From contig CALCCA010000114.1 of the NCBI GenBank assembly GCA_937899725.1, positions 1 to 64,000 of the forward strand: a stretch of 64,000 nt of DNA. Reading direction: 5' to 3'. Source of the stretch: an uncultured Halomicronema sp. (GTDB lineage: Bacteria > Cyanobacteriota > Cyanobacteriia > Phormidesmidales > Phormidesmidaceae). Position numbers and translations under genes: made by a program. The notes below the pieces were generated by a model, which saw nothing but the letters and a program-made list of their open reading frames with translations, did no database searches and had not been told where the DNA came from. This document shows positions 56,455 through 62,037 of the stretch, in pieces (within the stretch, counting starts at the first letter, position 1; each line of letters begins with the position of its first letter).

Positions 56455-57828
56455 GAGACTGTGCAGAATTTTGTGTAAGCGGTCTAAAATCCCGATAACT
56501 CAGGAGACCGCATCATGTTCCGGAACAAACAAGTCTCGAATCGCGCCGATGAGCTGCTGGATGAGCTGTTATCAGACTGTCAAAGTCCAGAAGAGATTCT
56601 TGGCGAGTCCGGCTTACTTAAGCAGTTAACCAAACGCCTGGTAGAACGTGCTTTAGCCGGAGAACTTAACCATCATCTCAAAGAGAACAGTGGCCGTTAC
56701 GACACCCGTGATTGTCGTAACGGCTACTCATCCAAAACGGTGCAGTCAGAACATGGGGAATTAGAGTTGGCGATTCCGCGCGTTGGCGCTAGCCTGTCCA
56801 GAGGACAATCGCCAAAGCACCTTTGAGCCCGTGTTGGTACCAAAGCATCAACGACGACTGAGCGGTTTGGACGAGAAGATTCTGGCGCTGTACGCACGGG
56901 GGATGAGCACCCGAGATATCGCGTTGCAACTGGAAGAACTCTACGGCACCCAAATCTCACCGGCCATCATCAGCGAGGTGACCGATACGGTCAGTGAGGA
57001 CGTCAAAGCATGGCAGCGCTGCCCTTTGGACGAACTGTATCCCATTCTCCTCCGGAGACGCTGCGCGAACGTTTATCTCGATGCCCTCTACGTCAATATC
57101 AAAGTCGCCGGACGGGTCAGCAAACGCGCGGTCTACGTGGTGCTGGGCCTCAACCGCGAGGGCAACAAAGACCTACTTGGTCTCTGGATTGGCGAGGCGG
57201 AGGCGGAGGGCGCGAAGTTTTGGCTCAAAGTCCTCACGGACCTCAAGAATCGGGGTCTGAAGGATATGCTGATTGCTTGTTGTGATGGCCTCAAAGGCTT
57301 TCCTCAAGCGATTGAAGCCGTGTATCCCCACACCCAAGTGCAGCTTTGCATTGTCCATCTGATGCGCAACTCGCTGCGCTATGTCCCTTGGAAAGATAGC
57401 AAGGCGGTCGCTGCTGACCTGAAACCCATCTATCGAGCCGCCACCTTGGAGGAGGCAGAGACTGCTCTGGAAGAGTTTGCCGCTAAGTGGGATGAGCACT
57501 ATCCAGCCGTGAGTCAAATCTGGTTACGACATTGGGAAAACATCATCCTCATCTTTGATTATCCGATGGAGATCCGCCGCGTCATCTACACCACCAATGC
57601 CATTGAGTCAGTCAACCGCTCATTGCGGAAGGTGGTTAAGACCAAAGCTGTTTTCCCAATGAAGACTCCGTTTTTAAGCTGATGTATCTGGCGATGAACA
57701 ACATTTCAAAGCGGTGGAATCGACCTATCAAAAATTGGAGGGCTGCCCTGTCACACTTTGCTATTCTGTTCCCAGAACGCTTCAAAGTTTGAACCCAAAT
57801 CTGCTTACACAAAAATCAGAAGACTCTC
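56455..57828 (+). mobile_element. IS256-family element, decayed
   Basis: Ends are similar but not identical: 56455-56480 (GAGACT...TTTTGTGTAAGC) and the complement of 57803-57828 (GAGAGT...TTTTGTGTAAGC), the last 12 bp being exact. Flanking octamers (56447-56454 and 57829-57836) match only partly, so no clean target duplication is seen. The transposase inside is frameshifted twice. Confidence 0.75.
56515..57792 (+). pseudogene. IS256-family (mutator-type) transposase, two frameshifts
   Basis: Frame 1 runs from 56515 through ELELAIPR. A 22-nt segment (56782-56803) with no counterpart in the family interrupts it and shifts the frame. Frame 2 then gives the core [36 protein letters not shown] and the Glu in TTNAIESVN, i.e. 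all three DDE residues. Near 57658 one base (expected CCCC, seen CCC) is missing. After that the original frame resumes with [15 protein letters not shown] to the stop at 57790. Non-functional as read. Confidence 0.88.
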
Positions 57829-59230: not shown

Positions 59231-59373
59231 TTCAAACTGAAGTGACTTTGGCTATTGCATTCACACTGCCAGGCAATTTCTGCGATCTCCCCTTGCATCT
59301 CCTTCCACAACTGCTTAGCCCGCTTGATGCGCTTTTACCCTCGACCTAGTAAACTCAGTTTCCGAACCTGAGG
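59231..59373 (-). pseudogene. AraC-type HTH gene fragment, copy B
   Basis: The minus strand reads RIKRAKQLWKEMQGEIAEIAWQ, then CECNSQSHF. It is related to the HTH of the AraC gene at 61525. Similarity with copy A extends ~30 nt past the coding part (ACCTAG...CTGAG), so copies A and B share one ancestor. It lies between the pentapeptide gene and the toxin-antitoxin pair. Confidence 0.7.
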
Positions 59374-59508: not shown

Positions 59509-59778
59509 ATGAACTTCGAGTGGGACGAAGCAAAAGCATCTGCCAACCAGAGCAAGCATGGCGTGTCATTTCTCGAAGGCACAGAAGTATTTGCAGACAA
59601 TTATTCCTCCTGTGTGCAAGACCCAGACCATTCGTACGAGGAGAAACGTTACCTACTCTTTGGGCTATCCTCAAAGGGAAAATACTTGGTTGTATCGTTT
59701 ACCGAAAGGCCGAACACTATCCGAATCATCTCAGCGCGATGTATGACTCGTCAGGAACGCAAAGCCTATGAGCAATGA
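59509..59778 (+). CDS. brnT: BrnT-family toxin
   Basis: 89 aa ribosome-independent RNase-like toxin of the BrnT (DUF497) family. FEWDEAKASANQSKHGVSF is the family start, and RIISARCMTRQERKAYE is the catalytic C-terminal block. The stop overlaps the antitoxin start by 11 nt, typical of type II pairs. Confidence 0.9.
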   Translation: MNFEWDEAKASANQSKHGVSFLEGTEVFADNYSSCVQDPDHSYEEKRYLLFGLSSKGKYLVVSFTERPNTIRIISARCMTRQERKAYEQ

Positions 59779-59971
59779 AGACACCTTGAGAGCCGAATAC
59801 CCAGCCGATCTGATCAAATCGGGTGTGCGCGGGAAATATGCGAGTCGTTATCGAAAAGGCACGAATGTGGTGGTGATAGATCCCGACCTCCACAAAATCT
59901 TTCCAGATTCAGAGTCTGTCAACCGTGCGCTTCGTCAGTATGCTGAGGAACATCAAATCTCGCAGGCATAG
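59768..59971 (+). CDS. Antitoxin partner of BrnT
   Basis: 67 aa. VRGKYASRYRKGTNVVVIDPDL is a recurring antitoxin start next to BrnT-like toxins. The rest is a short helical, acidic tail (FPDSESVNRALRQYAEEH). It is not the classical BrnA sequence, which carries a ribbon-helix-helix, so I leave the symbol blank. It presumably neutralises the upstream toxin. Confidence 0.78.
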   Translation: MSNEDTLRAEYPADLIKSGVRGKYASRYRKGTNVVVIDPDLHKIFPDSESVNRALRQYAEEHQISQA

Positions 59972-60010
59972 TCCGTCCTAGAGACTATACTGATTGCGTC
60001 TCGAAAGCGT

Positions 60011-60149
60011 TTGTGAAATGACTCTGGCTATTGAAGCCGCACTGCAAGGCAATTTCTGCGATCGCCCCTTTCGTCCCTTTCAACAACTGCTTGGCCCGCT
60101 CGATGCGCGATCTCACCTAGCCAAACAAGCTCGTTTTTCCGTCTGAGTG
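60011..60149 (-). pseudogene. AraC-type HTH gene fragment, copy A
   Basis: The minus strand reads RIERAKQLLKGTKGAIAEI and then ALQCGFNSQSHFTNAFE, without stop codons over ~36 codons. It aligns with RVEQARQLLPLTKRAIAEI of the gene at 61525 and shares its flanking tail with copy B. It lacks the rest of the gene. Confidence 0.75.
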
Positions 60150-60253
60150 ACCAGGCAAATGATGGGATAACACCTCCCATTCCTAGAATTAACTATCAGA
60201 TTTGCTATTTGAAGCCCCGAAGTCATGGGGTTAGGCAGCAAACCCCTGTAGAG

Positions 60254-60317
60254 TCGGGTATTATCCATCAGATCTGCAATATAACCTCAGGTAAATCGGG
60301 GATTATCCATCAAATCT
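60254..60317. repeat. Direct repeat pair, 22 nt, 42-nt period
   Basis: TCGGGTATTATCCATCAGAT at 60254 and TCGGGGATTATCCATCAAAT at 60296 differ at two positions over these 20 bases. A weaker third relative (ATTAACTATCAGATTTGCT) lies near 60187. They are directly upstream of the two-gene cassette. Confidence 0.6.
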
Positions 60318-60369
60318 TACGTTAGATATATAGGATGCGCCTATCTTCTGCGACGTTATCTAGTGATAT

Positions 60370-60921
60370 ATGGCCTCGATCGAAACTAAGCGAACTTTCC
60401 GACTTCAAGTAGTCCATTCCTTATGCTGGGAGCGTGATCCAGACTTGGGGGAGATTAAACAGCAACTCTCGTATAGTGGAAAAACCGGCATCGCTCGGGT
60501 TCGTTTCTCGTTGTATCACGGAATTAAAGCAGAACCGGGCGCCGAAAGCCTTCCGTGTCACCATACAGAGCTTTGGCAACTATGGGGCGGAGCAGACCTA
60601 AACCGAAAAGAAAGTTCCCCAATCTCGCAACTGCTTTCAAAGGCGTTATCTTTGCCTGGACGCACTCTGTTCAGCCCTGACACATTGATACAGTTTGGCA
60701 AAGATGAACTAACAGACCTATCTCCCGATCAGGTCGAAGGTGCTGTACGGGAATTAAAGATGATGTTTACCGAACTTGATGGGCACCTTAGGCATTTCTT
60801 CGAGAATATCTCTTGGTGCGTAGGTGCACGATCTAGTAGCCGACTCTATGAGCTTGGATGGCCGGTCATCGACTCAAGTGACCCCCAGGGTATTTTGACT
60901 TTCACTTCAGACCTACGGTGA
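60370..60921 (+). CDS. Hypothetical protein, first gene of a coupled pair
   Basis: 183 aa, soluble, no family recognised. A mixed alpha/beta composition; blocks TFRLQVVHSLCWERDPDLGE and GAVRELKMMFTELDGHLRHFF are visible. The stop overlaps the GTG start of the next gene (GTGA), so translation is coupled. With a HEPN-like protein as partner it could be an antitoxin or a sensor component; this is inference. Confidence 0.65.
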   Translation: MASIETKRTFRLQVVHSLCWERDPDLGEIKQQLSYSGKTGIARVRFSLYHGIKAEPGAESLPCHHTELWQLWGGADLNRKESSPISQLLSKALSLPGRTLFSPDTLIQFGKDELTDLSPDQVEGAVRELKMMFTELDGHLRHFFENISWCVGARSSSRLYELGWPVIDSSDPQGILTFTSDLR

Positions 60922-61448
60922 CTCGGTGGAAACGCGAATCGATCGATCTTTCCAGGCATATTCCTGAAGCTAGAGCCCCATTTTCGTCTGCTCTTTTGGG
61001 TGAGGCGTGGCAGGCTCTAGAAAATAGTGATCGCAGCGCATTCGTGATAGCGCACATAGCAATAGAGGCGGCGACAAAAGAGTGCGTTGCCAGTATTATT
61101 CCTGGAGCGCGTCACATCGTTGACGGTGTTCAAGCACCGCCCCTACCTAATTTGCTTGAAATGCTCTATGAAAATATAGACGAAGACTTGGCAAGCCGGT
61201 TAGGGGATGAGGCTGTGTGGGGGTGTAACTCTGGGGAATTCTGTGCTGCTTCGAGATGGGTTCGAAAAAGAGCAAATCTCCGAAACAAGATTGTGCATGG
61301 ACACGATGAACTTTTTACTGCTGATGAAGTTGTCAATTGGCTCAAGCTATATGAACAACTCATCACTCTCCTCTGGCTTGCCAGGGAGCGCCATGAGGGC
61401 TCTTCGGGACCCGCACAGAAGTTGTTCGACGACAGTTGGGCTACCTAA
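60918..61448 (+). CDS. HEPN-like protein, second gene of a coupled pair
   Basis: 176 aa, helical, GTG start at 60918. It contains RNKIVHG (Arg122, His127), the R-x4-H motif of HEPN nucleotide-binding and RNase domains. The preceding FVIAHIAIEAATKECVA helix is also HEPN-like. The stop codon lies inside the CCTAAC at the start of the attC-like site. HEPN toxins often pair with an antitoxin. Alternatives: a DUF4145-type or other helical protein. Confidence 0.65.
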   Translation: MTRWKRESIDLSRHIPEARAPFSSALLGEAWQALENSDRSAFVIAHIAIEAATKECVASIIPGARHIVDGVQAPPLPNLLEMLYENIDEDLASRLGDEAVWGCNSGEFCAASRWVRKRANLRNKIVHGHDELFTADEVVNWLKLYEQLITLLWLARERHEGSSGPAQKLFDDSWAT

Positions 61449-61516
61449 CAAATGCATGCAGTCGGACAAAATTGCTTGCTATGCTCTCAATCTTACCGCT
61501 GATGCATGGCTTTATC
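61443..61516 (+). repeat. attC-like integron recombination site (decayed)
   Basis: It begins ACCTAAC (61443-61449), which fits the RYYYAAC R'' box and contains the stop codon of the HEPN gene. ATGCAT-G-CAG-T-CGG then pairs with CCG-CTG-ATGCAT on the right (61496-61507), leaving G and T unpaired, as in attC extrahelical bases; ACAAAATTG/CAATCTTA extends the stem. The expected GTTA of the R' box reads TTTA, so it looks inactive. The cassette would start at the GTTAGAT at 60321. Confidence 0.55.
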
Positions 61517-61524
61517 TTGCAAAT

Positions 61525-62037
61525 CTAATTTTTACGATAATTGTTAGGTGTCATGCCAGTCGCATCCTTAAAGTGCTTGGTGAAATGGCTTTGGCTGTTG
61601 AAGCCACACTGTAGGGCAATTTCTGCGATCGCCCTTTTTGTCAGCGGCAATAACTGCCTGGCCTGCTCGACTCGTTGCTGAATCAGGTATTGATAGGGCG
61701 TGATGCCCATCGACTGTTTGAACAGGCGGCTGAAGTGAAACTGACTGATGCCCGCTACCTCAGCCAGGTCAGCTAACTTAATGGATTGGTCGAGGTGAGC
61801 GTGGATGTAGTCGGAAATTTGCATAATCTTGCGATCGCCCAACCCACCTTCGTAAACCGCCACGCGGGGGTTGGCCGTTGAGTATTCGCGCAAAAGATTG
61901 ACTGCCAACACATTCGCCAAAGATTCTACATAGAGCTGCCCCACCCAGCTGTCGCCCTCATGCAGTTCCGCCCGTAAGAGCTGCAAGACTTGCTCTAGCT
62001 GAGGGTCGCGCACCCGAAATTCTATGGTGAGGTTCAA
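61525..62037 (-). pseudogene. AraC-family regulator, 5'-truncated
   Basis: Only ~170 C-terminal residues remain, starting at a TTG (62037) where the sequence switches to the MATE remnant. Two HTH motifs are intact: IKLADLAEVAGISQFHFSRLFKQS and TKRAIAEIALQCGFNSQSHFTKHFKDATGMTPNNYR. The family is usually ~290 aa, so most of the effector domain is lost. It is the fourth and longest AraC piece in this region. Confidence 0.82.

Follow-up and report, generated by a model that had tools for sequence, protein, structure and literature searches.

A probable relict chromosomal integron in a cyanobacterium: a HEPN-type gene cassette at an attI site that has lost its integrase

Integron integrase genes (intI) have been reported in Cyanobacteria (PMC2426708), and a model of cyanobacterial attC sites has been built earlier (PMC8352920). 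Clusters of attC sites without an integrase (CALINs) have been defined (PMC9024848) and their origins discussed (PMC8618304). Few descriptions exist of attI sites beyond class 1 integrons, and such sites escape IntegronFinder (PMC9024848). The HEPN superfamily, to which one protein of the locus described here appears to belong, has been surveyed (PMC3710099). Because both cyanobacterial integrons and attC clusters lacking an integrase are already known, this locus adds one more case. The DNA analyzed, hereafter the window, consists of bases 1-64000 of contig C114 (97 kb), from a genome of 7.0 Mb in 216 contigs; the octamer GCGATCGC has 91 occurrences, compared to about 1 predicted from composition, an excess that points to a cyanobacterium. 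We propose that the locus is very probably a relic of a chromosomal integron, in which a HEPN cassette was inserted at an attI site beside araC, the integrase was lost and the cassette became fixed.

The locus is embedded among fragments of araC. A 3' end fragment on the reverse strand (59237-59331; 78% match to araC of the sister genome G003) is followed on the forward strand by brnT, the BrnT toxin gene of a toxin-antitoxin pair (59509-59778; Pfam BrnT_toxin, E 3.4e-26), and by an overlapping ORF (59768-59971) that has no Pfam match and, judging from its position, probably encodes a BrnA-type antitoxin. A second araC tail on the reverse strand (59999-60107; 89% match to G003 araC) lies directly left of a degraded attI site (60165-60333), after which come the 1178 bp cassette between its two crossover points (60334-61511) and its attC site (61443-61517), all on the forward strand. 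An araC-family regulator gene on the reverse strand, truncated at its 5' end, abuts the attC (61525-62037; Pfam HTH_18, E 1.5e-27; 83% match to the full-length G003 gene). Near 62037, this gene and the neighbouring MATE gene are both shorter than in G003, as if by one deletion. A BrnT/BrnA-type pair between two araC tails, as at 59509-59971 of the window, is also present in G005 (L101 5129-5819, 88.7%). Fragments of the araC 3' end are repeated in the genus (L101 at 6900, 7700 and 11515; L100 at 4119 and 5377; and the two tails of the window), several of them immediately following the right core of an attC or adjacent to an attI.

The left border of the cassette is defined by the attI site. 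When the attI of G004, which lies beside an intact intI, was used as a query, three places were matched in the genome that contains the window, namely C87:99790-99972, C155:21460-21531 and window 60165-60333, the last with 71% identity (E 4.9e-18), and homology in the window stops at the crossover G, position 60333. The initial annotation had taken GTTAGAT (60321-60327) as the left core of the cassette. In a six-way alignment, however, this heptamer aligns with GTTGAAT, GCTGAAT, TTTGGAT or GTTGAAC of other attI sites; it sits inside attI, 12 bp before the crossover, and the junction is better placed at 60333/60334. GTTAGAT is also weak evidence because six-of-seven matches to GTTAGGT are common by chance (3 within the 1.2 kb searched; one strand of the whole window has 54). 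Alignment and chance counts together rule it out as a core. On the evidence of the alignment, the left core heptamer appears to be gone: the junction now reads G^GATGCG, with G^GA where G^TT would be expected, and the insertion point is given by the end of attI homology. To its left, window 60014-60164 is 83% identical to the matching junction of araC tail and attI in G003. A sigma-70-type promoter was looked for in attI and none was found.

An attC finder demanding paired spacers yielded nothing useful, and covariance models were used in its place to locate the attC site (left core ACCTAAC, 61443-61449; right core TTTATCT, 61511-61517). Positions 61443-61517 scored 26.3 bits with a model from 20 related attC sites (E 6.9e-4; next best 10.6) and 28.4 bits with a model from 52 (E 2.1e-4; next best 11.7). 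Both models were built without the window site, and their E values apply to 64 kb, with filters off for the run of the first. The pairing covaries, with 53 double-change cells under the 20-site model (22.6 when shuffled and at most 19 in slid controls) and 164 under the 52-site model (70 when shuffled). The window attC nevertheless scores below average and is borderline on score alone, a 28.3-bit match having a genome-scale E of 0.025; what makes it convincing is its position right at the end of the cassette ORF and downstream of attI. The TAA of ORF2 lies within ACCTAAC and is followed by an attC-type stem with unpaired bases, ATGCAT-G-CAG-T-CGG against CCGCTG-ATGCAT, both as first described, and the extrahelical G occupies a position conserved in related attC sites. 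The unit agrees with a gene cassette in that its ORFs lead into an attC whose R and L parts pair and leave extrahelical bases, but not in its right core, where TTTATCT replaces an intact GTT. An Rfam search of the whole window returned no match.

Comparison with G003 supports these borders. There, an attC adjoins the same araC 3' end, with a right core GTTATCT followed by TTCAAATCTAA, whereas the window has TTTATCT (T^TTATCT at the crossover) followed by TGCAAATCTAA at the same place. This shows that the right core of the window lost its G (G -> T), in line with the earlier impression that it had decayed. The left flank is also collinear in the two genomes (pentapeptide gene, araC tail, attI). 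With no intI between tail and attI in either of them, the integrase was probably gone already in their common ancestor.

Two other readings of these borders were considered. The attC could extend to a GTTAGGT at 61543, which shows a nine-base pairing with ACCTAACAA and would make the site longer and still intact. The fold of 61440-61552 does stand out from its shuffles (z -3.65), an effect that depends on this GTTAGGT, whereas 61440-61516 folded alone does not (z -1.33). We nevertheless regard a longer site as extremely unlikely. This GTTAGGT belongs to the codons of araC, and the araC of the sister genome does not conserve it. The model sets the right core at 61511, a place where the sister genome has GTTATCT, and the distance between that core and the inner stem agrees with other attC sites. 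GTTAGGT at 61543 was accordingly rejected as right core by its coding position, the sister sequence and the placement by the model. It is also conceivable that the HEPN pair arrived by homologous exchange between araC tails or on a transposon and that the attC-like stem is unrelated to it, since araC 3' tails are repeated around the locus in three genomes and could recombine, and a Mutator-type transposase lies at 56783-57682. Such a route is very unlikely, as similarity to attI breaks off precisely at the crossover base, the attC reaches a significant score and the sister genome, too, carries an attC bordering this araC.

A third alternative concerns only the gene content of the cassette, which encodes two overlapping ORFs, as had been noted from the start: ORF1 (60370-60921, forward strand, 183 aa, no recognised domain) and ORF2 (60918-61448, forward strand, 176 aa, HEPN-type), whose GTG start overlaps the stop of ORF1. 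The two together (359 aa) might represent one HEPN gene that a frameshift has split, which would make it a pseudogene within a dead cassette. ORF2 has two cyanobacterial relatives (27-30% identity), each of them one chain of ~355 aa that carries its HEPN part at the C-terminus, so that ORF1 takes the position of their N-terminal half, and the rest of the locus is decaying. On the other hand, coupled genes typically overlap in this way (GTGA), neither ORF is interrupted otherwise, and in sequence ORF1 resembles the N-terminal half of the homologues only slightly. We consider a split gene a genuine possibility, although we lean away from it.

The initial annotation had spoken of a HEPN pair. The cassette has one recognisable HEPN domain, in ORF2, and ORF1 is a partner ORF without one. 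The motif RNKIVH (61281-61298, forward strand), an Rx4H motif of HEPN ribonucleases, is conserved together with surrounding residues; its R, N, V and H are invariant in ORF2 and both homologues, and all three sequences thus carry the Rx4-6H motif expected of HEPN proteins. Pfam HEPN matches are below threshold, the best at 13.5 bits against a curated cut-off of 28.4, with 18.3 bits for a homologue. Predicted structures are of low confidence (pLDDT 50-54), that of ORF2 being helical (pLDDT 53.5), and a fold search with them returned nothing below E 0.9, the best matches being toxin-antitoxin complexes (E 0.96 and 1.5). Neither a search of solved structures by sequence nor PADLOC, NCBIfam and PHROGs gave a match for ORF1 or ORF2. 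No homologues of the pair were found in plasmids, phages, viral contigs or two scans of genome contigs; Cyanobacteria yielded only the two remote ones, and ORF1 had none in 386 genomes. HEPN proteins in general are known as ribonuclease toxins or defence effectors, and the putative function of ORF2 is based on these roles. We somewhat favour the view that the pair comprises a HEPN ribonuclease and a regulatory or sensing partner, with a role in toxin-antitoxin or phage-defence systems.

Integron remains are present elsewhere in the genome. The 20-site model gave at least 23 candidate attC sites in the genome, 19 of them outside the training set (at least 11 at E<1e-3 and at least 17 at E<0.04), mostly on separate contigs; the window site is absent from the genome lists of both models, for which 150 of ~1400 candidates were scored. 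Several sites start within a few tens of bases after an ORF, and attC clusters occur, for example, on C171 and C87. The window itself contains no integrase, as first stated, nor does any integrase gene lie next to the window attI as in a complete integron. An intact integrase was not found in the assembly, in which the sole intI-specific match is a pseudogene fragment on C171 (residues 1-70, two stops), followed by an attI-like region and a first cassette that contains a HEPN gene. The first cassettes at other attI sites of this genome, L003 12107-13347 (C171) and L063 8081-10210 (C87), look defence-like, and include a HEPN-type ORF that neighbours one with HEAT repeats, a protein of PD-(D/E)XK type and a RelA/SpoT protein. 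The initial annotation had proposed an integron gene cassette without integrase, to be abandoned if neither a significant covariance score nor further attC sites or an intI could be found in the genome. A significant score at 61443-61517, many other attC sites and an intI remnant were all recovered, and the upstream attI and the sister locus lend further support to the proposal.

Integrons occur among the relatives of this organism, with intI above the curated cut-off in 31 of the 65 genomes of the order. The attI regions upstream of intI contain imperfect palindromes of 35-40 bp, at 0.86 per locus compared to 0.03 in dinucleotide shuffles (35 attI regions, e.g., L043 4610-4760, L026, L009 and L025). 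These attI regions end in a G^TT crossover and are followed by cassettes whose attC sites measure 85-88 bp. The attI query matched 23 of 64 family genomes, and nine of the 13 attI loci examined had no nearby intI match apart from one weak recombinase-like match (L131, L133-L139 and L143, in G003, G006, G034, G037, G031, G028, G045 and G001). Six of these nine have an attC downstream, in every case sharing the strand of the attI, which indicates that integrase-less docks with cassettes are a repeated feature of the family. What is more unusual than the cassette itself is this recurrence of palindrome-rich attI sites and integrase-less attI-cassette-attC units in the family; in our survey of the literature, which was of incomplete coverage, we found no paper on palindrome-rich attI sites in Cyanobacteria. 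A more speculative and rather unlikely extension is that integrons of the family are multi-dock systems, in which an integrase acting in trans places cassettes at scattered, integrase-less, palindrome-rich attI sites, with the window as a dead dock. As a separate observation, intI remnants sharing one type of internal deletion, in which the N-terminus runs directly into the final residues, turn up repeatedly, in several genomes (L051 10425-10688 and 12632-12871; L141 2219-2570; G026:C108; G047:C1).

Returning to the window as an integron relic, the DNA sequence shows the attI and attC sites and where the cassette begins and ends, and also that intI is missing and that the cores have decayed; from these features we infer a past recombination event. 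In the proposed course of events, an integron integrase would have inserted a cassette with a translationally coupled ORF pair at the attI beside the araC gene. The integrase gene is now absent next to attI, and neither crossover core has kept its GTT (the left one reads GGATGCG, the right one TTTATCT). The cassette can therefore presumably no longer be excised and would be locked in place as a fixed gene pair. The earlier suggestion that it may be fixed is strengthened by the loss of GTT at both junctions and by the lack of an intact integrase in the assembly.

Homology to a sister attI located the integrase-less dock, gave the position of the cassette border to single-base precision and accounted for an attC that is weak otherwise. 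Searches of this kind make it possible to test the course of integron decay and the way in which a defence-like gene, once captured, turns into a lasting part of the chromosome, and orphan attI sites merit separate study. Compared with known systems, ORF2 resembles HEPN ribonuclease toxins and defence proteins in its all-helical prediction and its Rx4H motif RNKIVH, but it falls below the family cut-offs, has no MNT antitoxin neighbour, and has only remote relatives, in two other cyanobacteria. Like a CALIN, the window has a cassette and attC without intI. It differs from one in keeping an attI and in having one decayed attC where the default minimum is two, and therefore does not qualify as a CALIN. 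Unlike the chromosomal integrons of Cyanobacteria, it lacks an intI at its attI, retains a single cassette and has mutations in both cores, but it shares with them the attI, the attC with a covarying stem, a cassette with one or more ORFs and the presence of intI in close relatives.
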